Assembly (NCBI RefSeq): GCF_016889705.1
Contig: NZ_CP069526.1
Location: 1-64,000, forward strand
DNA: 64,000 nt
Reading direction: 5' to 3'
Source of the DNA: Amycolatopsis sp. FDAARGOS 1241
GTDB taxonomy: Bacteria > Actinomycetota > Actinomycetes > Mycobacteriales > Pseudonocardiaceae
The notes under the pieces are model-generated. The model was not told where the DNA came from, did not search any database, and was given only the letters and a program-made list of their open reading frames with translations. A program made the translations under genes and the position numbers. This document shows, one piece after another, positions 14,050 to 58,223 of the stretch (positions within the stretch are counted from its first letter, which is position 1; each line of letters opens with the position of its first letter).

Positions 14050-14615
14050 CGCAGCCCGTCAGATCGGTCACTCGGCCGCGCCCCGCGCAGCATGGCTGCG
14101 GGCGAAGATGAGCTCGGCAGCCGCGTGGCCCGTCGCGCGAAGTGAGCGCTCACGCCGGCGCCGACAGCCTCGCGAGTGGTGGGCCGTCCGGTCGGTCGCC
14201 TGAACCGTCGCCCCGCTGTACGGCTGAGGACGAAGATGAGCTCGGCAGCTGTGTCGCCCATCGCTCCGTGTGAGGGCTCTCGCCCGCGCCAACGGCATAG
14301 CCGGGTTGGCACCCCTGTCCGGTCGGTCGCCTGAACCGTCGCCCCGCTGTACAGCTGCGGACGAAGATGAGCTCGCCAGCTGCGTGGCCCATCGCTCGAA
14401 GTGAGCACTCACGCCGGCGCCGACAGCCTCGCGAGTGGTGGGCCGTCAGGTCGGTAGCTCGAACCGTCGCCCCGCCGCACGACTGAGGCCAGATGAGCTC
14501 GGCAGCTGCGTGGCCCATCGCTCGAAGTGAGAGCTCTCACCCGCACTGGCGGCCTCGCTGAGTGCCAGACCTGTCCGGTCGGGTCGCTCGAACCGCCATC
14601 CTGCGCGGGCTCCAG
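14050..14615. repeat. Degenerate tandem array, about 128-bp period, four to five copies
   Basis: The marker GATGAGCTCG recurs at 14107, 14235, 14366 and 14492, giving spacings of 128, 131 and 126 bp. Other shared blocks, such as GTGGCCCATCGCTCGAAGTG and GAACCGTCGCCCCGC, keep the same spacing. The spacings are not all multiples of three and no frame shows typical codon bias, so it is probably non-coding. The array fills most of the 852-bp gap 13822-14673 upstream of the clamp gene. I see nothing else recognisable in that gap. Confidence 0.85.
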
Positions 14616-45993: not shown

Positions 45994-46090
45994 GGACCCG
46001 GTGTCCAACCGGGCCGGTTCAGTCCGACCCCCCGGGGCTGAACCCACGGCGGCCCTCGTCCCTCCCCCCTGGCGAGGGCCGCCCTCTTTT
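45994..46090 (+). ncRNA. 6C small RNA
   Basis: About 97 nt contain two hairpins, each with exactly six consecutive Cs in its loop. Hairpin 1 is GGTTCAG/CTGAACC (46016-46044, Cs at 46028-46033). Hairpin 2 is GGCGGCCCTCG/CGAGGGCCGCC (46048-46083, Cs at 46064-46069). CTCTTTT follows as an intrinsic terminator. A TAAGGT -10-like hexamer lies at 45984-45989. Structure, size and position between the HAD gene and ssd match the actinobacterial 6C RNA (M. tuberculosis B11), which pairs with G-rich ribosome-binding regions. Confidence 0.88.
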
Positions 46091-46364: not shown

Positions 46365-47790
46365 CCAAGGGGAGACCCATGCGATGCACACACCCACTCC
46401 TGCTCTCGGTCCACTTCGGCCGGTTCCCGCGGGCGAGCCGGATGAAATCACGCGCTTACATGCGACCGCCGGCTCGGGGCTCAATGCTCCTGCGTGCCAC
46501 CGCCCGATTTCGTTGTCAAGGGAACCGTCCGCTTACCTTCCACCGCCGCGGCGCGGCATGAATGGACTCGTTCAGCCTTGGCCCGGTTTCGCCGGCCGAA
46601 CCCGAAGAAAACCGTCCGCTTACACACCGGCGCACGGCTTCTCTCCGAATGACCGTCCTGTCAGAAGCCGGTTCGCCCCAGGGAAGACCTCTGAGAACCC
46701 GTCTCACCCTGTGTTCGACGAAGGGCCTCGGCAAAGCACCGAATCTCCGACCCGCCTGCACGCTGCCGAACCTGCACTGCTGAACGAATCGACCCGCTCG
46801 ACCGGGTTTGGCCTGGGACGAGGAGACCGGTGAGGGCGGTCCGCCGACTTGTCGGCAACGCCACGCTCGACGAATTGCCCGAGTCGGCGCCAAGCGGATT
46901 CTCCGCCGCAGGCCGAGGTCATCAACCGCGCCGCTGAATCCGCGCTGGTGAACCAAGCGACCCGCTCGACGCCAACCGCGTTCTGCCTCGGGAAGGGGAG
47001 CTGTGAGAACCGAACGTCGACCTGTCGCCAGGACCACGCTCGATGAGTGGCCTCGGCGCCGACCGGGTTTCTCGGCCGTGAGCCGAGCCCGAAGAGCGCC
47101 TGTGTCGCCCGCAGGCTGCCAAACCCGTACTGCTGACCGCAACAACTTGCTCAACGCCGACCGTGTTCTATCTGGGAAGGGGAGATCTGTGAGGACCGAA
47201 CGTCGACTTGTGGCCGGCGCCACGCTCGATGAGTGGCTTCGGCGCCAGCCGGGTTTCTCGGCCGCGAGCCGAGGCCGATGAGCGTGCCTCACTCGCACGC
47301 CGCTGAATCCGCGCTGCTGACCACAACGACCTGCTCGACGCCGACCGTGTTCTGCCCGGGGAGGGGGAGATCTTTGAGAACCGAACGTCGTCCTGCCGCC
47401 GGGGCCAGTGTCGATGAGTGGCTTCGGCGCCAGCCGGGTTTCTCGGCCCCGAGCCGAGGCCGATGAGCGTGCTTCCCCACACGTTGCCGAACCCGCATTG
47501 TTCACCAAAACGACCCGCTTGACGCCGACCACGTTCCGCCCGGAGGGGAGAACCGAACGTCGTCCTGTCGCCGGCGCCACGCTCGATGAGTGGCCTCGGC
47601 GCCGACCGGGTTTCTTGCCTGCTGGCCGAGTCCGATGAGCCTGCCTCGCCCGCACGCCGCCAAACCCGTACTGCTGACCACAACGACCCGCTCGACACCG
47701 ACCGGGTCCCGCCACTGGGGAGAGCCAGATGAAAAACGCCCGCCCGCTTGTCATCGCCGCCGAGGGCGCCGTGCTCGACGAGGTCTTGCG
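46365..47790 (+). repeat. Tandem decayed copies of the ssd leader and 5' coding end
   Basis: Units of about 173-186 bp repeat in front of ssd. Each has a purine-rich ribosome-binding site and a start codon or its relic at 46830, 47003, 47189, 47374 (TTG) and about 47548. Codons resembling the start of ssd follow: RTERRLVAGATLDEWLR in the repeats against MKNARPLVIAAEGAVLDEVL in ssd. The functional copy begins at 47729. More diverged relics seem to reach back to about 46378. Spacings are not multiples of three, so the relics are not one coding frame. I see no other gene in 46091-47728. Confidence 0.8.
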
Positions 47791-48793
47791 TGTCGCCGCC
47801 GTGGCGGGGTGCGAGCTCGATCGCGCGCCCGACCTCGCGGCCGCCCGGTCGCGCTGGAGCCGCGCCCCGCTCGTCGTGATCGAGGAGGACTGCGCCGACG
47901 ACCACGTGGCCATGCCGCGCCGCGACGGTGTTTTCGTGGTGTGCAAGGGCTCCGCGGACGTGGCGGTCTGGCGCCGGGCCGTCTCCGTCGGGGCGCGGCG
48001 CGTCTTCTGCCTCCCCGAAGACGAGTCCGAGTTGACCGTCGCGTTCGCAGATGTCACCGACGCCCCCGCCGATTCGCCCGGCCCGGTGATCGCCGTCGTC
48101 GGCGGGCGCGGGGGTGCCGGCGCCTCCGTGCTGGCGGCCGCGCTCGCCGTCGAAGCCGACCTCACCGCCCCGGCTCTGCTCATCGACTGCGACCCCCTCG
48201 GCGGCGGCCTGGATCTGCCCCTGGGCCTGGAAAACACTCCCGGGCACCGCTGGCCGGACGTCCGCCTTTCGGGTCGCGTCTCCCTCCCGTCGCTGATCGA
48301 CGCCCTGCCCCACCGCGGCACCCTGCCCGTGCTGTCCTGCGGCCGCACCGCCGCCGGCCCCGCGCCGCGCGCCCTGACGGCTGTCGTGTCCGCTGCCCGC
48401 CGCGCCGGTCGGGTCGTCGTCTGCGATCTGCCCCGCCACCTCGACGAGGGCGCACTCGCCGTCGCGGAGCTCGCCGACCTCGTCGCGCTGGTCGTGCCGA
48501 TCGAGTTCCGCGCCTGTATGGCCGCCAAACAGGTCCTCCACCACCTCACCGCCCACACCGACCGCCTCGGCATCGTCGCAAGTGGACATCCGCGCGCCGC
48601 CGCGCCACCGTCCCGCACCGCAGCCCTCCTGGGCCCGCCGCTGCTCGCCACCCTGGCCCCCGAGCGCCGCGTCGCCGCGACCCTCGAAACCGGCGAGTTC
48701 GACATCCCGCCCAAGGGCTCCCTGGCCACCACGGCCCGCGCCCTCCTCGCCGAGGCCCGGCCCAAGCCGGCTCACCTCGCTTCAGCCGCCTGA
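47729..48793 (+). CDS. ssd: Septum-site-determining protein / CpaE-like ATPase (Rv3660c type)
   Basis: This 354-residue protein of the MinD/CpaE superfamily has an N-terminal receiver-like domain (about residues 1-110). A ParA-like domain follows, with the degenerate Walker A VVGGRGGAGASVLAA; both the signature and P-loop lysines are missing. LLIDCDPLGGGLDL and VVCDLPRHLD stand for later motifs. It probably positions the pilus machine or affects septum placement, as reported for Ssd in mycobacteria. ATG 47729 follows GGGGAG. It heads the tad operon; tadA starts 32 bp downstream. Confidence 0.9.
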   Translation: MKNARPLVIAAEGAVLDEVLRVAAVAGCELDRAPDLAAARSRWSRAPLVVIEEDCADDHVAMPRRDGVFVVCKGSADVAVWRRAVSVGARRVFCLPEDESELTVAFADVTDAPADSPGPVIAVVGGRGGAGASVLAAALAVEADLTAPALLIDCDPLGGGLDLPLGLENTPGHRWPDVRLSGRVSLPSLIDALPHRGTLPVLSCGRTAAGPAPRALTAVVSAARRAGRVVVCDLPRHLDEGALAVAELADLVALVVPIEFRACMAAKQVLHHLTAHTDRLGIVASGHPRAAAPPSRTAALLGPPLLATLAPERRVAATLETGEFDIPPKGSLATTARALLAEARPKPAHLASAA

Positions 48794-48824: not shown

Positions 48825-49961
48825 ATGACCACCGATTTCGTCGAGCGCGTCCGCCACCGGCTGGCGGGCGAGAGCCGCCTCGCCGACCCGGTCGCCGTCG
48901 CCGAGGCGGTGCGGGCCGAGGCCGGCGGCACACTCAGCCACGACGCCGTGCTGGACGCCGTCCGCCAGGCCCGCGACGAGTTCGTGGGCGCCGGCCCGCT
49001 CGCGCCGCTGCTCGAAGACCCCGCCGTTACCGACGTCCTCGTCACCGCACCCGACCAGATCTGGACGGACGGCGACGCCGGCCTCGTCCGCACCCACCTG
49101 CGGTTTCCCGGCGAGGAAGCCGTTCGCCGCCTGGCCCAGCGCCTGGCCCTCGCGGCCGGCCGACGGCTCGACGACGCACAGCCCTATGTGGACGGTTGGC
49201 TTCCGGCCCCGGGTGGTCACGTCCGCGTCCACGCCGTCCTGCCACCCATCGCCCCGAACGGCACCTGCCTGTCCCTGCGTGTCCTGCGCCCCGCGACGCA
49301 CACCCTCGACACTCTGACCACCCTCGGCGTCGTCACCGAAGAGGGCGCGGAGCTCCTCCGCTCGATCATCACGAGACGCCTCGCCTTCCTCGTCACCGGC
49401 GGCACCGGTGTCGGCAAAACGACACTCCTGAGCGCTCTGCTGAGCGAAGTCGACCCGCGTGAACGCATCGTGTGCGTGGAAGACGCCGGCGAGCTCCGCC
49501 CTGCGCACCCGCAGTTCGTCAGCCTCGTCTCCCGCCCGGCCAACGTCGAAGGCGCGGGCGCCGTCGAACTCCCGGAACTGGTCCGGCAGGCCCTCCGCAT
49601 GCGTCCCGACCGCCTGATCGTGGGCGAAGTCCGCGGCGCCGAGGTGTGCTCACTGCTCAACGCCCTCAACACCGGCCACGACGGCGGCGCCTGCACCCTC
49701 CACGCCAATTCCCCCTCCGAGGTCCCCGCGCGCCTCGAAGCGCTCGCCTCCCTCGGCGGCCTCACTCGCGACGCCCTGCACAGCCAACTCGCCGCCGCAA
49801 TCCGCGTCGTCCTCCACCTCAAACGCGACCCCGACGGCACCCGCCGCCTCACGGAAATCGCGGCAATCCAGCGCACCACCCGCGAGGTCCACCCCACCCC
49901 CCTCTGGCGCGACGGCCAGTGGACCTCCCACCGCCCCCTCTTCGAAGAGGCCACCTCATGA
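48825..49961 (+). CDS. tadA: TadA/CpaF-type secretion ATPase
   Basis: This 378-residue secretion ATPase powers assembly of tight-adherence (Flp) pili on the cytoplasmic side of the membrane. Motifs are Walker A GGTGVGKTTL (about 192-201), an Asp box VEDAGELR, Walker B-like PDRLIVGEVRGAE and a His box NTGHDGGACTLHAN. ATG 48825. The stop overlaps the ATG of the repeat ORF (ATGA). The homologue is Rv3659c. In M. tuberculosis the next gene is directly tadB-like. Confidence 0.94.
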   Translation: MTTDFVERVRHRLAGESRLADPVAVAEAVRAEAGGTLSHDAVLDAVRQARDEFVGAGPLAPLLEDPAVTDVLVTAPDQIWTDGDAGLVRTHLRFPGEEAVRRLAQRLALAAGRRLDDAQPYVDGWLPAPGGHVRVHAVLPPIAPNGTCLSLRVLRPATHTLDTLTTLGVVTEEGAELLRSIITRRLAFLVTGGTGVGKTTLLSALLSEVDPRERIVCVEDAGELRPAHPQFVSLVSRPANVEGAGAVELPELVRQALRMRPDRLIVGEVRGAEVCSLLNALNTGHDGGACTLHANSPSEVPARLEALASLGGLTRDALHSQLAAAIRVVLHLKRDPDGTRRLTEIAAIQRTTREVHPTPLWRDGQWTSHRPLFEEATS

Positions 49962-51310
49962 CCCGCGCCTTCGCCCGCACCCCCCACCTTCGCGGACATC
50001 GCGGCAACGGCGCGCCCGCACCCGCTGCCGGCACCATCGGCTCGCCACTCGAGGCTCGCGGCATTCCCCGGCGTCCTGGCAACGGCGGCCGCGTGCGCGT
50101 AACTGGCACGGTCGACTCGCCACTCAAGCCGGACGGTATTCGGCGATGTCGCGGCTGTGGTCCGATCGCGAGGGGCGGCGTGCGTGTTGCTGGCCGCGTC
50201 GGCTGGCCGGTCAAGCCGGACGGTATTCACCGACGTCATCGCTGTGGCCCGATCGCGACGGGTCGCGTGCGCGTTGCTGGCAGGATCGGATCGCTAGTGG
50301 AGGCGCGTGGAATTTGCCGACGTCACGGCTTTGGCGCGATCACGAACGGCCGCATGCATGTTGCTGGCACCGTCGGTTCGGCACTCAAGCCCGACCGTAT
50401 TCACCGACGTTCCGGTTGTGCCCCGACCACGACGGGTCGCGTGCGCGCTGCTGGCGGCGTCGGCTCGCCGCTTGAAGCACGTGGAAATCGCCGTCACGGC
50501 TTCGGCGCGATCACGACGGGCCCCGTATACGTTGCTGGCACCCTCGGTCCGCTACTCAAACCGCACGGTACTCGCCGACGTCTCGACTGTGCCCCGACCA
50601 CGTCCGGCCACGTGCGCGTCGCTGACACCGTCCGCTCGCTACTTGAGGCGCACGGTATCCGTCGGCGTCGCACCAACGGCGCGCCCGGCCACGTGCGCAT
50701 CGCGGGTGTCGGCGGCTCACCACTGCAGCCGACCCGTCTTCGCCGACGTCCCAGCAATGGCGCGATCACGACGGGCCGCATGCAGGTTGCCGGCAGCATC
50801 GGCTCGCTGCTTGTGGTGCGTGGTGTTCGCCGACGCTGCGGCATCGACCTGACCACGACGGGCCGCATGCGTCTTGCTGGCACCGTCGGTCGGCCAGTTG
50901 AGGCGCGTGGAGGGCACCGACGTTGCCGCTGTGGCCCGACCGCGACCGGCCACGTGCGTGTTCGGGACACCCTCGACCGGCCACTCGAGGTACGCGGCTT
51001 TTGGCGGCTCTGCGGCAATACCCATGACTTACCCGGGAACCAGCCCGTCATGACTCACCACACGCCGGCCGGCGCCACCCCCATCCGCAGGCGCCGCAGC
51101 GCTGATCGCCACCACGGGAACCACCGGCCCTCCACCCGTGCGCTGCCGGACCGAGTTCCTCCCCACGAGGAGGTCACCTCGGCCACCCGGCGAACCGGCC
51201 AGGCCAACCACCACCACCTCGACCACCGACCGCCTGATTGCGCACAGCTCAACGGAACTTCCGCGACCCGATCAGCCGCTCGCCGACCTCCGAGGAAGGT
51301 CGCCGGATGA
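49958..51310 (+). CDS. 29-residue repeat ORF inserted between tadA and tadB
   Basis: This 450-codon open frame starts at ATG 49958 (ATGA overlap with tadA) and ends with TGA inside ATGA of tadB. Residues about 24-365 are twelve repeats of roughly 29 residues, typified by AGTVGSPLEARGIRRRHGCG then PITTGRVRV; forms with KPD and EAR alternate, giving a 58-residue higher period. Core repeat starts lie 87 bp apart with exceptions of 84 and 81, all multiples of three. The product would be very basic, without signal or membrane helix. GC3 is lower than in neighbours, so translation is plausible but unproven. The tail (366-450) is Arg/His-rich. Confidence 0.5.
   Translation: MTRAFARTPHLRGHRGNGAPAPAAGTIGSPLEARGIPRRPGNGGRVRVTGTVDSPLKPDGIRRCRGCGPIARGGVRVAGRVGWPVKPDGIHRRHRCGPIATGRVRVAGRIGSLVEARGICRRHGFGAITNGRMHVAGTVGSALKPDRIHRRSGCAPTTTGRVRAAGGVGSPLEARGNRRHGFGAITTGPVYVAGTLGPLLKPHGTRRRLDCAPTTSGHVRVADTVRSLLEAHGIRRRRTNGAPGHVRIAGVGGSPLQPTRLRRRPSNGAITTGRMQVAGSIGSLLVVRGVRRRCGIDLTTTGRMRLAGTVGRPVEARGGHRRCRCGPTATGHVRVRDTLDRPLEVRGFWRLCGNTHDLPGNQPVMTHHTPAGATPIRRRRSADRHHGNHRPSTRALPDRVPPHEEVTSATRRTGQANHHHLDHRPPDCAQLNGTSATRSAARRPPRKVAG
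50080..51030. repeat. 87-bp minisatellite within the tad operon
   Basis: The marker GCTGGC or its variants recurs at 50102, 50189, 50276, 50363, 50450, 50534, 50621, 50702, 50789, 50876 and 50963. Copies differ by many substitutions but only by in-frame length changes. There are no unique spacers, so it is not a CRISPR array. Confidence 0.9.
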
Positions 51311-52062
51311 TCGACTCCTGGCCCTTTCTCTGCCTCGGCACCGCACTCCTCGTCTGGCCCACTCTGCCGACCCGCCTCGACCCACCGCGGCGTCCCACCC
51401 TCACCATCCCGCACCTGCCTCGCCGCCTCCGTTGGCTCTTGCCGGCTCTGGCCGCCATCCCGATCGCCGGGCCGGGGGCAGCGTTGGCTGTCGCAGTCGT
51501 GACCGTCGCGGTGAGGCAGGAGTGGCGCAGCCGCAAGGAATCCGCGGCGACCCTGACCCGCGGAGAGCAGACCTCGGCCGCCCTGCGGGCGATGGTCGCG
51601 GAGCTCCGGGCGGGCGCGCACCCCGTGCTCGCAGCCGAAGCGGCGGCCGACGCCGTCCCGGCGCTGTCGGCTGAACTGCGCAACCTCGCCACCGCCGCGC
51701 GGCTCGACGGAGCGCTCGAATCCCGGCAGCTGCCCGAACTCGCCGCCGCCTGGGGGCTCGCCCGGAGGCACGGCCTCCCGATCGCCGACACCCTCGACGC
51801 CACCCGCCGCGACACCGACGCCGCCACCGCCTTCGCGCGACGTCTCCACGCCAAGATGGCCGGCCCGCGGATGAGCGCGACCGTCCTCACCGCGCTCCCG
51901 ATCGTCTGCCTCGCCATGGGGCAGGCCATCGGCGCCGATCCGCTGGCCGTCCTCACCCACACGCTCCTCGGGCAGCTCTTCCTCGTCACCGGCGCCGTTC
52001 TGATCTGGGCCGGCACCGCCTGGTCGCGCGCTCTGACCGCCCCACGCCGGGAGGCCCCGTGA
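51307..52062 (+). CDS. tadB: TadB-like pilus-assembly membrane protein
   Basis: This 251-residue type II secretion F-domain protein has N-terminal hydrophobic helices. A cytoplasmic helical domain follows (about residues 85-190, including ELRAGAHPVLAAEAAADAVP and ARRHGLPIADTLD), and two C-terminal helices end it. It forms the inner-membrane platform with TadC. ATG 51307 overlaps the repeat-ORF stop, and its stop overlaps the tadC GTG (GTGA). The homologue is Rv3658c. Confidence 0.88.
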   Translation: MIDSWPFLCLGTALLVWPTLPTRLDPPRRPTLTIPHLPRRLRWLLPALAAIPIAGPGAALAVAVVTVAVRQEWRSRKESAATLTRGEQTSAALRAMVAELRAGAHPVLAAEAAADAVPALSAELRNLATAARLDGALESRQLPELAAAWGLARRHGLPIADTLDATRRDTDAATAFARRLHAKMAGPRMSATVLTALPIVCLAMGQAIGADPLAVLTHTLLGQLFLVTGAVLIWAGTAWSRALTAPRREAP

Positions 52063-52748
52063 CCCCGTACCTCCTCGCGGCCGCAGCGCTCCTCATCTGG
52101 CCCAGTGCACCCGCGCCACGCAGTCTCGCCGAACGCGTGAAATGGCGTCCGAAGCTGCCCAGCCTCCGCATCCGGCACTTCATCGCAGCCGTCCTCGCCG
52201 GGGCCTCGGTCGCCGTGTTCGCCGGGCTCCCCGGCGGTGCCCTCGCCGGTGGGGCCGCGTGGTGGCTCCTGCGCCGCTCGCGGCGCCCGAAGGCCGACGA
52301 CGTCGGCGAACGCCTCGCCTCCGCCGCCACGCTCGACCTCCTCGCCGCGTGCCTGCGCACCGGCCTGCCGGTGCCGACGGCCCTCGAAGCCATCAGCACC
52401 ACCGCGCCCGAGCACACGGCCACGGCGCTGCGAGCCACCGCCCACCTCCTCGCCCTCGGTGCCGACCCGCCCGAGGCGTGGGCGCCGACCAGGACGCGGC
52501 CGGGGTTCGAGGAGCTGGCCGTGGCCGCCACCCGCACCGCGCGGTCCGGGGCCGCACTGGCCGCGACGGCCGACGGAATCTCCCGCCGCCTCCGCGACGG
52601 GCTCGGCGTCGAGGCCGAAGAACGCGCCGAACGGGCCGGGGTCGCACTGGCGCTGCCGGTCGGGCTCTGCTTCCTGCCCGCGTTCTTCGTCCTCGGCGTG
52701 CTGCCGGTGGTGCTCGGCCTCGCCGGGCAGATCGGCGGTCTGCTGTAG
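52059..52748 (+). CDS. tadC: TadC-like pilus-assembly membrane protein
   Basis: This 229-residue second F-domain platform protein has N-terminal helices, a cytoplasmic domain with LLAACLRTGLPVPTALEAIS and RSGAALAATADGISRRLRDG, and a C-terminal hydrophobic region (ALPVGLCFLPAFFVLGVLP). GTG 52059 overlaps the tadB stop. It corresponds to Rv3657c. It probably forms a heteromer with TadB beneath the pilus. Confidence 0.88.
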   Translation: MTPYLLAAAALLIWPSAPAPRSLAERVKWRPKLPSLRIRHFIAAVLAGASVAVFAGLPGGALAGGAAWWLLRRSRRPKADDVGERLASAATLDLLAACLRTGLPVPTALEAISTTAPEHTATALRATAHLLALGADPPEAWAPTRTRPGFEELAVAATRTARSGAALAATADGISRRLRDGLGVEAEERAERAGVALALPVGLCFLPAFFVLGVLPVVLGLAGQIGGLL

Positions 52749-54716: not shown

Positions 54717-57700
54717 TCACGAACCACCGTGGCCGCACTGTTCCCCGTGCTGACGCAAAGCCCCGAGCACGGCATCCAGAACGGCCACCGCCCCCGCCTT
54801 GTCCAGCGGATCGTTGCCGTTCCCGCACTTCGGCGACTGGACGCAGGACGGGCACCCCGTCGGGCACTCGCAGGAGACGATCGCCTCCCGCGTTGCGGCC
54901 AGCCACGGGACAATCGCGGCATAACCGCGGTCGGCAAATCCCGCACCCCCGGGATGCCCATCGTGCACGAACACCGTCGCCTCCCCGGTGTCCTCGTGCC
55001 ACGCGGTAGACACCCCGCCGATGTCCCAGCGGTCGCACGTAGCGAACAGCGGTAGCAGGCCGATCGCCGCGTGCTCGGCGGCATGCAGAGCGCCGGGGAC
55101 GCGCGCCGGGACCAACCCGGCGCCCCCCGGCGCCCTGTCGACACCCCCGGTCCCCACCGGCGCCACCTTCCCCACCGGTGGCACCCCGGGCCCCCGCTCC
55201 TCGGGCCCGGGTGCCTCAACGTCGAGCAGGTCCCGCTCCACGGCCTGGCCCGAAGGCTCCACGGGCGTACCAGATGCCGCATCACGCTTCGCTGCGCCAC
55301 CGGATCCGCCACGGCCGGCCCCGCCCACGTCGTTGCCGGCACCTCCCGCGCCCGCAACGGAATGGCCGCCAGACTCGGCGACCCCGGCAACTTGGTCGCC
55401 GGTGGCGCCGGCGCAGCGGCCGGCCGAACCGCCACTACTCGAGCCGCCACTGCCCGAGCCGGCTGTGCCGGCACGGTCCGCGTCGGCCGCGCCGCTACTG
55501 GCGGATTCAGCGTCCGCCGAGTCACAGCCGGCCGATTCACTGCTAGTCGAGTTGGCGCTGCCGGAGGCGGTGGTACTGCTGTCGGTGTCGGGTTCAGCGC
55601 CTGCGGGGTTGGCTGAGTCACTGCCAGGCGCGTCAGCGCTGGCGGAGCTGGTGTTGTCCGGCTCGGCGGCACCGTTGTCGGAGCCGGTGTTGGTGCGGCT
55701 GCGGTCAGCTGAGTCACGGCTAGCCGAGTCGGCATTGCCCGAGGCGGCGGCACTGCTGTCAGTGCCGGGTTCAGCGGATTCGGGGTTCGCCGGGTTACCG
55801 CGAGCCAAGTCGGTGCTGTCCGGCTCGGCGACACCGCTATCGGAGCCGGAGTCAGTGGAGCTGCGGTCAGCCGAGTCACTGTTAGCCGAGTTGGGGCTGC
55901 CGGAAGCGGCGGAACCCCTGTCGGTGCCGGGTTCCGCGCAGCTGCGGTCAGCCGGGTCACCGCCAGCCCAGTCGGCGCTGGCGGAATCGGTGTTGTCCGG
56001 ATCGGCGGCACCACTGTCGGAGCCAGCAGAGGTGCGGTCAGCAGGGGCGGGGCCGGCCGAGCGGTCACCGGCAGCGACATCGGCAAGGTCCGCGTCGGCA
56101 TCGCTGCCGGCCGAGTCATCGCCCGTGGGGCGGTCGGCTGAGGCGGTGCCCGGCGAATCGGTTCCAGCCGAGCAGTCGGCAGGGTCGGCGCCGGACCACG
56201 CAGCCGCGTCGCCGGAGCTTGAAGTGCCACTCGGCCCAAGGGGCGCCGCGGATTCGGTCCCCACCCGAGCATCCCCGGTCACCGTCCGGTGCGGGGGGCC
56301 GAGCAGGTCGTCGGACAGCGTGTACCAGACGGCGCGCGTGTGCAGGCTCTGCTCAGGCAGATCGAGTGGCGTGTGGTCCAGCACCTCGCCGGACGGGCGC
56401 CGCCGCAGGTAGCCGACGACCTGCGACGTCACCGCGACTTCGCCGAGGCACACGGTGACGCCGCCGTGGCGGCACCGCTGTTCGGTGGCCAGCACGGAGA
56501 TGTCCACGACCTCCCGCGGCGATGTGTGCCAGTCCGGGTCCTCCGCGTGCACGAGCGCGAGCCCCGTCTCGAGGTCGAGCTCGTCGACGACGTACGACGA
56601 GCCCTGGTGCAGGTACACCGCGCCCGGGTGGACGGCGTAGCACGCCGAGCCCGGGTCGACCGTGCCGAGCATGCGGCCGGAGTCCGCCTCGACGACGGCG
56701 ACCTGGTCGCCGCCCGAGCCGCGGATGCCGACTTCCGCATGGGGGCGGTCGCGCGAAGTCCAGTACCAGCCGCTGGAACGGCGGCGCAGGAGCTTCTCCG
56801 CAGCCAGGTCCGCCAGCACGTCCCGGGCCGCGGCGCCGCCGAACATCGCCAGCTCCGGTTCGGTCAGCGGCAGTTCCGCGACGGCGCACGCGAGCTGCGG
56901 ACCCAGCACGTACGGGTTCGTCGGGTCGAGCACCGCCGTTTCCACGGGACGATCCAGCAGCGCCGCCGGGTGGTGCACGAGGTAGGTGTCCAGCGGGTCG
57001 TCGCGCGCGATGAACACCACCAGCGCTTCGTCGCCCGACCGGCCGGCGCGCCCGGCCTGCTGCCAGAACGACGCCAATGTGCCCGGGTACCCGGCGAGCA
57101 CCACTGCGTCGAGACCCGCGATGTCGACGCCGAGCTCCAGCGCGTTCGTCGTCGCTACCCCCAGCAGCCGGCCGGACAGCAGAGCTGACTCCAGCGCCCG
57201 CCGCTCCTCCGGCAGGAAGCCGGATCGGTACGCCGCAACCGTTTCCGCCAACGCTGGGTCCACTTCGGACAGCAGCCGCCGCGCGCCCAGCGCCGTCAGC
57301 TCCGCCCCGCGCCGCGAACGCACGAAAGCCAGCGAACGCGCGCCCTCCACCACGAGGTCCGTGAGGATCCGCGACGCCTCCACACCCGCCGAACGCCGGA
57401 CCGGCGCGCCGTTCTCGCCCGTCAGCTCGTCGAGCAGCGGCGGCTCCCACAACGCGACCGTCCGCGCGCCCCGGGGGGACGCGTCTTCGGTCACCGCCTC
57501 GCACGCCACCCCGGTGAGCCGCGACGCGAACTCCGCCGGCGAAGCCGTGGTCGCCGACGCCAGCACGAACACCGGCGAAGCCCCGTAGTGCGCCGCGACC
57601 CGGCGCAGGCGGCGCAGCAGCAGCGCGACGTGCGAACCGAACACCCCGCGGTAGCTGTGGCACTCGTCCACCACCACGTAGGCGAGGTGCTTGAAAAACT

Positions 57701-58223
57701 GGGTCCACCGCGAATGTGCCGACAGGATCCCGCGGTGGAGCATGTCGGGGTTCGTGAACACCCAGTTCGCGTGCGCGCGCACCCAGTCGCGCTCCGTCAT
57801 CGGCGTGTCACCGTCGAACGACGCCGCTCGCACCCCCGGCAAGTCCAAAGAGGACACCGAACGCAGCTGGTCGGCGCCCAGCGCCTTCGTCGGCGACAGG
57901 TACAGCGCGGTGGCGCTCGAACCCGTGGCCAGTTCGGACAGCACGGGCAGCTGGTAGGCCAGCGACTTCCCCGATGCCGTGCCCGTCGACACCACCACGT
58001 GCATGCCCCCGTGCGCGTGCGAGGCCGCCGTGACCTGGTGCTGCCACGGCTTCTCCACCCCCGACGCCGCGAACGCCGACACCACCGCCGGCGCCGCCCA
58101 CTCCGGCCACGGCGCGAACCCCGCCGGACGCGCGGGCAATTGTGCCACGTGCGTCACCGGGTTCTCGTTCACCGGCACCCCCGCCGTGACCCGGCTGAGC
58201 AGCCTCCGTCCTCGCTCGACCAC
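54717..58223 (-). CDS. DEAH-box helicase (Rv3649/MrfA type) with a large repeat insertion
   Basis: This helicase is about 1,168 residues, against about 770 in the M. tuberculosis homologue. Motif I STGTASGKS (about 78), motif II DECH (about 188), motif III LASATT and motif VI QQAGRAGRSG (about 390) are present. The C-terminal domain has a four-Cys zinc site (CECPTGCPSCVQSPKC), as in the DNA-repair helicase MrfA. Residues about 645-1042 are an in-frame Ser/Asp/Ala/Gly-rich repeat insertion within the C-terminal domain, just before VPGALHAAEHAAIGLLP. GTG 58223 is preferred; GTGs at 58286 and 58178 are possible. The neighbouring cspA found in M. tuberculosis is absent. Confidence 0.88.
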   Translation of the reverse strand: MVERGRRLLSRVTAGVPVNENPVTHVAQLPARPAGFAPWPEWAAPAVVSAFAASGVEKPWQHQVTAASHAHGGMHVVVSTGTASGKSLAYQLPVLSELATGSSATALYLSPTKALGADQLRSVSSLDLPGVRAASFDGDTPMTERDWVRAHANWVFTNPDMLHRGILSAHSRWTQFFKHLAYVVVDECHSYRGVFGSHVALLLRRLRRVAAHYGASPVFVLASATTASPAEFASRLTGVACEAVTEDASPRGARTVALWEPPLLDELTGENGAPVRRSAGVEASRILTDLVVEGARSLAFVRSRRGAELTALGARRLLSEVDPALAETVAAYRSGFLPEERRALESALLSGRLLGVATTNALELGVDIAGLDAVVLAGYPGTLASFWQQAGRAGRSGDEALVVFIARDDPLDTYLVHHPAALLDRPVETAVLDPTNPYVLGPQLACAVAELPLTEPELAMFGGAAARDVLADLAAEKLLRRRSSGWYWTSRDRPHAEVGIRGSGGDQVAVVEADSGRMLGTVDPGSACYAVHPGAVYLHQGSSYVVDELDLETGLALVHAEDPDWHTSPREVVDISVLATEQRCRHGGVTVCLGEVAVTSQVVGYLRRRPSGEVLDHTPLDLPEQSLHTRAVWYTLSDDLLGPPHRTVTGDARVGTESAAPLGPSGTSSSGDAAAWSGADPADCSAGTDSPGTASADRPTGDDSAGSDADADLADVAAGDRSAGPAPADRTSAGSDSGAADPDNTDSASADWAGGDPADRSCAEPGTDRGSAASGSPNSANSDSADRSSTDSGSDSGVAEPDSTDLARGNPANPESAEPGTDSSAAASGNADSASRDSADRSRTNTGSDNGAAEPDNTSSASADAPGSDSANPAGAEPDTDSSTTASGSANSTSSESAGCDSADAESASSGAADADRAGTAGSGSGGSSSGGSAGRCAGATGDQVAGVAESGGHSVAGAGGAGNDVGGAGRGGSGGAAKRDAASGTPVEPSGQAVERDLLDVEAPGPEERGPGVPPVGKVAPVGTGGVDRAPGGAGLVPARVPGALHAAEHAAIGLLPLFATCDRWDIGGVSTAWHEDTGEATVFVHDGHPGGAGFADRGYAAIVPWLAATREAIVSCECPTGCPSCVQSPKCGNGNDPLDKAGAVAVLDAVLGALRQHGEQCGHGGS
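55095..56290 (-). repeat. In-frame coding repeats inside the helicase gene
   Basis: About 1.2 kb encodes disordered Ser/Asp/Ala-rich sequence with imperfect tandem copies. The plus-strand marker GTGTTGTCCG (or its variant) lies at 55651, 55813 and 55990, and CTGCTGTC or its variant at 55576, 55753 and 55915. The spacings are 162 and 177 bp, all multiples of three (54 and 59 residues). A half-unit of about 81 bp is also visible. The outer parts are less regular and Gly/Pro-rich. Confidence 0.85.

Follow-up and report, generated by a model that had tools for sequence, protein, structure and literature searches.

Rickettsia palindromic elements are dispersed palindromic repeats that are found inside protein genes and are tolerated as the reading frame is preserved. 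In ordinary translational coupling, adjacent genes are joined by a 4-nt start/stop overlap of the ATGA or NTGA type; overlaps of this length are present in 143 of 638 co-directional pairs sampled in the genome considered here. According to a review (PMC12548453), mycobacterial interspersed repetitive units (MIRUs) insert at start codons in such a way that the ORF inside them is coupled at -4 nt, an arrangement that likely keeps their influence on expression small. The MIRU units of senX3-regX3 measure 77 and 53 bp (PMC4213456), and both of these published lengths obey, by our own computation, the rule 3n-4, under which every unit forms an overlapping mini-ORF by itself.

The window, i.e. the whole 64-kb stretch of DNA that was analysed, carries the tad locus of a 9.8-Mb Amycolatopsis genome, with the order ssd, tadA, repeat frame, tadB and tadC. 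Its features are as follows.

47729..48793, plus strand: ssd, first gene of the tad locus, for a CpaE-like septum site-determining protein (TIGR03815, E 2.4e-86)
48825..49961, plus strand: tadA, for a TadA-family ATPase (TIGR03819, E 9.7e-146; T2SSE)
49958..49961, plus strand: ATGA junction, the repeat frame starting on the tadA stop (direct reading)
49958..51310, plus strand: putative relay frame of 450 codons, the whole feature (ORF list and sequence reading)
50024..51022, plus strand: 12 diverged tandem units, with a unit of 87 bp, variants of 75, 84 and 81 bp, and a partial last copy
51023..51306, plus strand: non-repeated tail of the frame, with a GA-rich, ribosome-site-like stretch at its end before tadB (ribosome site by eye)
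51307..51310, plus strand: ATGA junction, tadB starting on the stop of the repeat frame (direct reading)
51307..52062, plus strand: tadB, for a membrane platform protein (T2SSF, E 1.6e-06)
52059..52748, plus strand: tadC, for a membrane platform protein, overlapping tadB by 4 nt (T2SSF, E 2e-17)

Like a MIRU, the array lies in an operon junction and its internal ORF is coupled to its neighbour by a 4-nt overlap; here both flanking genes are joined in this way, by ATGA at 49958-49961 and at 51307-51310. A 4-nt start/stop overlap at both ends of the frame is also the mark of ordinary coupling, from which the locus differs in that the overlap is stretched over 1.35 kb by a frame without any sign of encoding a protein. 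The frame is kept as in the Rickettsia palindromic elements; unlike them, the array is tandem and sits between genes. From the sequence comparisons given below, the array is probably filler that is required to stay readable, its NTGA-to-NTGA frame letting ribosomes pass from tadA to tadB.

The repeat frame extends from ATG 49958 to TGA 51310 through 450 codons with zero internal stops. Direct reading confirms the preliminary description of the locus, in which a 1.35-kb insert was said to form one frame that overlaps both tadA and tadB by ATGA. Between the stop of tadA and the start of tadB the relay chain is unbroken, taking a single hop that runs from -4 to +1349 when counted from the tadA stop. 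TRF scores of 435-508 place the repeat array beyond chance. The 11 spacings of its 12 units are 75, 87, 87, 87, 87, 84, 87, 81, 87, 87 and 87 bp, all multiples of three, and when the copies are aligned, internal gaps appear at three places (12, 3 and 6 nt); the earlier statement that spacings come in multiples of three stands, and its restriction to 87, 84 or 81 bp falls with the one spacing of 75 bp. Neighbouring units are ~66% identical. By eye, the unit types follow in the order EAR, KPD, KPD, EAR, KPD, EAR, KPH, EAH, QPT, VVR, EAR, EVR. The alternation of KPD and EAR units with a 58-residue dimer period, which had been proposed, is visible in part, since the mean identity is 0.683 at lag 2 against 0.661 at lag 1, raised mainly for pairs beginning at units 3-5.

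The predicted product of the frame has a pI of 12.0, with 84 Lys and Arg against 22 Asp and Glu, 11 Cys and 25 His, as expected from the very basic, Cys/His-dotted product of the preliminary description. Its strong basicity, the 450 open codons positioned like an operon member and the unit spacings in multiples of three would suit a repeat protein that functions in the pilus system, is restricted to the lineage and evolves fast, and a new pilus-associated repeat protein had indeed been put forward. The copies themselves argue otherwise. Their pairwise differences are equal at codon positions 1/2/3 (0.343/0.331/0.340), and dN/dS between them, a comparison that the same description had proposed, is 0.84 in the frame and lies inside the 0.80-1.00 of the five other frames, which leaves the protein reading unsupported. 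The GC3 of the frame is 0.71 (0.69 in the array part) against 0.88-0.90 in tadA, tadB and tadC, lower than in the neighbours as had been observed. With 178224 codons of the genome as its training set, a codon model gives the repeat frame a score of -0.26 per codon, resembling non-coding DNA and the forward frames of two other arrays in the window (-0.21 to -0.47); the scores of ssd, tadA, tadB and tadC are positive (+0.19 to +0.28). Pfam and NCBIfam searches of the frame matched no family, no homologue of the product at E <= 0.01 was found among 7989 candidate proteins scored, and a single-sequence structure model has a mean pLDDT of 38.8, a low-confidence prediction that is weak evidence. The spacers of the closest relatives, including the sister species G028, hold no similar sequence. 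Neither purifying selection at the protein level nor a recognisable homologue is found, and the array carries no mark of protein-level constraint. It most likely yields no useful protein, and the continuous reading frame appears preserved. A repeat protein of the pilus system, for which a conserved small ORF and a mild third-position excess in relatives (see below) may also be cited, is very unlikely.

The frame could alternatively be open by chance, in a neutral non-coding array with high GC and a stop-poor unit, tadB being started from its own ribosome site. Dinucleotide shuffles of the whole spacer give P = 0.0044 for zero stops in the frame. Under an array-aware null, in which the copies are mutated independently from their consensus, P is 0.12, and long frames are common at such GC. 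The ribosome-site-like stretch before tadB, recognised by eye, speaks against a relay and for a neutral array. Openness of the array alone is weak to modest evidence, and the case for a readable filler rests on comparison with relatives.

A set of 153 tadA loci was collected, of which 29 with a tadA stretch identical to a kept one were dropped, leaving 124 distinct loci. The tadA-tadB overlap measures 4 nt in 34 of the 124 loci and 7 nt in 26. The gap is positive at 61 junctions; the relay test took the 40 where tadB carries NTGA and the gap is 13 nt or more, accepting ATG, GTG and TTG alike as starts; start assignment is uncertain in distant genera. Left out were 14 junctions with a gap of at least 13 nt and an assigned tadB start other than NTGA, and seven with a gap below 13 nt, mostly from distant relatives and with starts that are probably mis-set. 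Outside the A. nivea/rubida clade, a complete relay is present in 31 of 32 spacers against 18.3 expected from dinucleotide shuffles, in a set of loci that share ancestry and so are not independent in this or the other relay counts. The sole non-relaying spacer, of 13 nt (L050), is coupled-looking and has no start. Twelve of the 13 distinct lengths among the 32 spacers are 1 mod 3. The thirteenth, of 665 bp in Amycolatopsis sp. GM8 (L057), is 2 mod 3; it was considered as a breach of the frame rule and rejected as such, as it relays in three overlapping hops.

Among the relatives, G028 (tadA 90% identical) has a 478-bp spacer, G094 (89%) a spacer of 52 bp and A. jejuensis (79%) one of 220 bp, each forming a single frame with NTGA at both ends. 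Local alignment to the spacer of the window gives P 0.38 for G028, 0.755 for G094 and 0.035, a marginal similarity, for A. jejuensis, and comparison of the spacer heads detected no homology of the window's with those of G028 and G094 (P 0.81 and 0.46). Spacers that are unrelated or barely related in sequence thus keep an NTGA-to-NTGA frame, and the relay from tadA to tadB, which the preliminary description had offered beside the repeat protein, is supported by this comparison.

In the A. rifamycinica clade, the spacer is short, entry is mostly from GTGCTGA, and the lengths of 64, 46, 34, 31, 25 and 13 are all 1 mod 3. Parsimony over 26 of the 28 members counts at least nine length changes, each a multiple of three, on a FastTree tree with midpoint root and some weak nodes; for this count, L047, one of the 14 junctions mentioned above, was assigned 13 nt manually, and L163 and L044 were left out. 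We also note that in L163 (G090) the tadA frame extends ~760 nt beyond the tadB start, the usual stop being apparently missing. In the A. nivea/rubida clade, the stop codon of tadA is TAG or TAA and no start overlaps it, so that by definition none of the clade's eight spacers relays (expected 0.05). Their lengths are 1 mod 3 in five and 2 mod 3 in three; in three of the eight, the frame that ends at tadB is broken. The comparison of tadA-tadB spacers that had been suggested was thus carried out across related species rather than strains, and these eight and the one 13-nt spacer are those without a complete relay among the 40.

Since high GC and repetition favour open frames, the control was built on the real spacers with their repeats retained. 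One random small indel was placed in each real spacer, with 100 trials per size. For the tadA-tadB spacers with a gap of at least 25 (n=31), all 31 real spacers relay, against 1.6-7.1 after 1-2-nt indels and 30.2-30.8 after 3-nt indels. For the ssd-tadA spacers with an NTG start on the ssd stop (n=43), the corresponding numbers are 36, 13.2-16.4 and 35.3-35.7. Random 1-2-nt indels usually break the relay and 3-nt indels rarely do. A neutral array does not account well for this outcome, nor for relatives that share the design with other spacer sequences, for 31 relays in 32 tadA-tadB spacers and for nine length changes all in threes. The window's two other intergenic arrays (46929-47723 and 14094-14595), the periods of which are not multiples of three, do not relay. 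We regard a neutral array as unlikely.

The ssd-tadA junction was tested in those 49 of the 124 loci in which the ssd alignment extends beyond residue 320 and the gap measures 100-1500 bp. A chain here means a series of ORFs that leads from the stop of ssd to the start of tadA, with overlaps of no more than 4 nt between successive members. A relay is present in 36 of these 49 spacers against 12.4 expected. The 13 chainless spacers comprise six without an NTG start on the ssd stop and seven with one, and these seven, out of 43 with such a start, include the closest relatives G028 (691 bp) and G094 (340 bp). In the genome of the window, no ATG, GTG or TTG start overlaps the ssd stop, and the gap to tadA is 31 nt. 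With G028 and G094 among the non-relaying spacers, the window's lineage is not a relay at this junction.

Several ssd-tadA spacers are tandem arrays, and some of these have 3n units in one frame, such as the 93-bp units of the 1107-bp spacer in G025. Units of 3n-4 are present in four spacers (125, 263, 143 and 209 bp in L044, L050, L101 and L111, respectively), where hops of one unit plus 4 nt occur, and chains reach up to seven hops in Lentzea atacamensis (L101). A clean rule by which every array is 3n or 3n-4 was dropped, as L005 relays with repeats of 20-31 bp. Nor does 3n imply a relay, since this fails for the ssd-tadA arrays of G028 (L003, 114 bp) and A. rifamycinica (L043, 93 bp).

In the A. 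rifamycinica clade (e.g., L013, L019 and L049), a small ORF begins on the ssd stop in 27 of 28 loci. It has a conserved N-terminal block with the consensus MTAPTRVSELLLPTVLTLASRGPASAANFLTLLP, often followed by GTRVTA repeats, and the 34-codon block differs by 0.316/0.243/0.374 at codon positions 1/2/3. A third-position excess, which is mild, is also observed within the arrays of L016 (0.215/0.204/0.266) and L045 (0.169/0.192/0.242); no comparable codon-position signal was found in the array of the window. The small ORF after ssd may be a real small protein. Given the excess in its block and in the two arrays, some of the relatives' frames may encode real peptides, which may explain part of the frame conservation at ssd-tadA in the A. 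rifamycinica clade.

A search of the genome with a model of the unit found only these 12 copies at E < 1e-6, the next best having E 0.012 (150 of 36301 first-look candidates scored), and a search with the whole array gave no match but itself among the 40 of 203 candidates that were scored. No counterpart of the array was found in 79 other genomes of the genus with four candidate places scored per genome; 27 of the 79 have stretches of only 24-80 bp at E <= 0.001. A dispersed repeat family was rejected, the units occurring only at their own locus among the candidates scored. No published description of such arrays in Amycolatopsis tad operons appeared among the matches listed. An Rfam search of the spacer found no family inside. 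This result and the lack of conservation of the spacer sequence between close species argue against a regulatory region, e.g., an internal promoter for tadB and tadC, although the MIRU-bearing senX3-regX3 spacer of M. tuberculosis is reported (PMC4213456) to drive senX3-independent expression of regX3. Such a regulatory role is highly improbable.

The relatives offer clues to the origin of the spacers. A direct repeat of the junction, GAGGAGACGACCGCGTGATC, lies on both sides of the 52-bp spacer of G094, and the direct repeat GAGGAGGCGACCGCATGA on both sides of the 478-bp spacer of G028; both fit duplication. In the ssd-tadA spacer of A. vancoresmycina (L050), a 263-bp tandem array has three units, each with a shortened copy of the tadA start and its ATGA. 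These copies are identical to the real start at 71-74 of the first 90 nt, and N-terminal fragments of TadA would be translated in succession from this array. The junction repeats and the tadA-start copies together point to tandem duplication across a coupled junction as the way in which the spacers arise. An origin of the 87-bp unit from the first 500 nt of tadB, the spacer lead or the joined flanking genes was considered and found not convincing (P = 0.01 against mononucleotide shuffles, five targets tried), and the source of the window's own unit is not traceable by these matches.

A sequence of events for the readable filler can be proposed on this basis. In the ancestor, tadB was probably linked to tadA through a short overlap of start and stop, an arrangement that many relatives have. 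The junction would then have opened in the window's lineage, probably by its own tandem duplication, as we infer from the two close relatives, leaving NTGA at either end of a short frame, inside which tandem repeats could have grown up to 1.35 kb. After finishing tadA, ribosomes would begin again at the ATG that overlaps its stop and translate the array as one frame of 450 codons, the amino acids of which are not preserved; they would terminate at 51308-51310 and re-initiate at the tadB ATG that overlaps this second stop. A broken relay would leave up to ~1.3 kb of untranslated message. Untranslated message is exposed to Rho-dependent termination, and downstream initiation is lowered. The relay would thus protect the operon from transcription polarity, and selection would purge chain-breaking changes while the spacer sequence turns over freely.

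The array is MIRU-like in its mode of action and is not a MIRU, because its units are not dispersed over the genome and are 3n in length. The unit of 87 bp is part of one continuous 450-codon frame rather than of 3n-4 length, the units are private to their own locus, the spacer sequences are replaced between close species, and the arrays of relatives resemble duplications of the junction itself. The 3n-4 rule, which is our own, is obeyed in the four ssd-tadA spacers of relatives listed above (L044, L050, L101 and L111). These features may define a class of intercistronic element without any defining sequence: private arrays that derive from duplication of a start/stop junction and survive only while readable, through 3n units in one frame or 3n-4 units with an NTGA each, under selection on ribosome continuity alone. 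We consider the case for such a class evenly balanced. The comparison also suggests that the MIRU design can arise in place more than once and needs no mobile family for this.

A long orphan ORF that lies between two genes of an operon is readily annotated as a hypothetical protein. Judged from sequence, the locus argues that some such ORFs could be translated filler in which only readability is conserved. A simple signature that can separate a relay from a protein is length modulo three together with NTGA ends, without codon constraint. Spacers of 13 to 1345 nt across related species also constitute a natural series for the tolerance of coupling to distance.

Relays are not in excess elsewhere in the genome: with genes called by the codon model of the genome, 214 co-directional gaps of 100-2000 bp in 1.26 Mb contain three chains against 3.6 expected, and the array of the window is one of the three. 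Two further co-directional gaps hold arrays (window 14094-14595 and one in L186), and neither relays. The array at 14094-14595 is a degenerate 128-bp tandem array of ~4 copies between minus-strand genes, with no chain on the minus strand. Another degenerate tandem array, with a unit of ~172-185 bp, occupies 46929-47723 just before ssd, between opposite-strand genes, and has 5-7 stops per forward frame. At 55650-55980, an 81/162-bp tandem repeat lies within a called minus-strand gene (54717-58178) and is apparently translated in-frame. Tandem arrays seem to be dense in this region, as six of the 14 detected in 1.264 Mb (the window and 60 sampled stretches) fall in the 64-kb window. We also note a 6C RNA (RF01066, 66.2 bits) at 46013-46087 on the plus strand, upstream of the tad locus.
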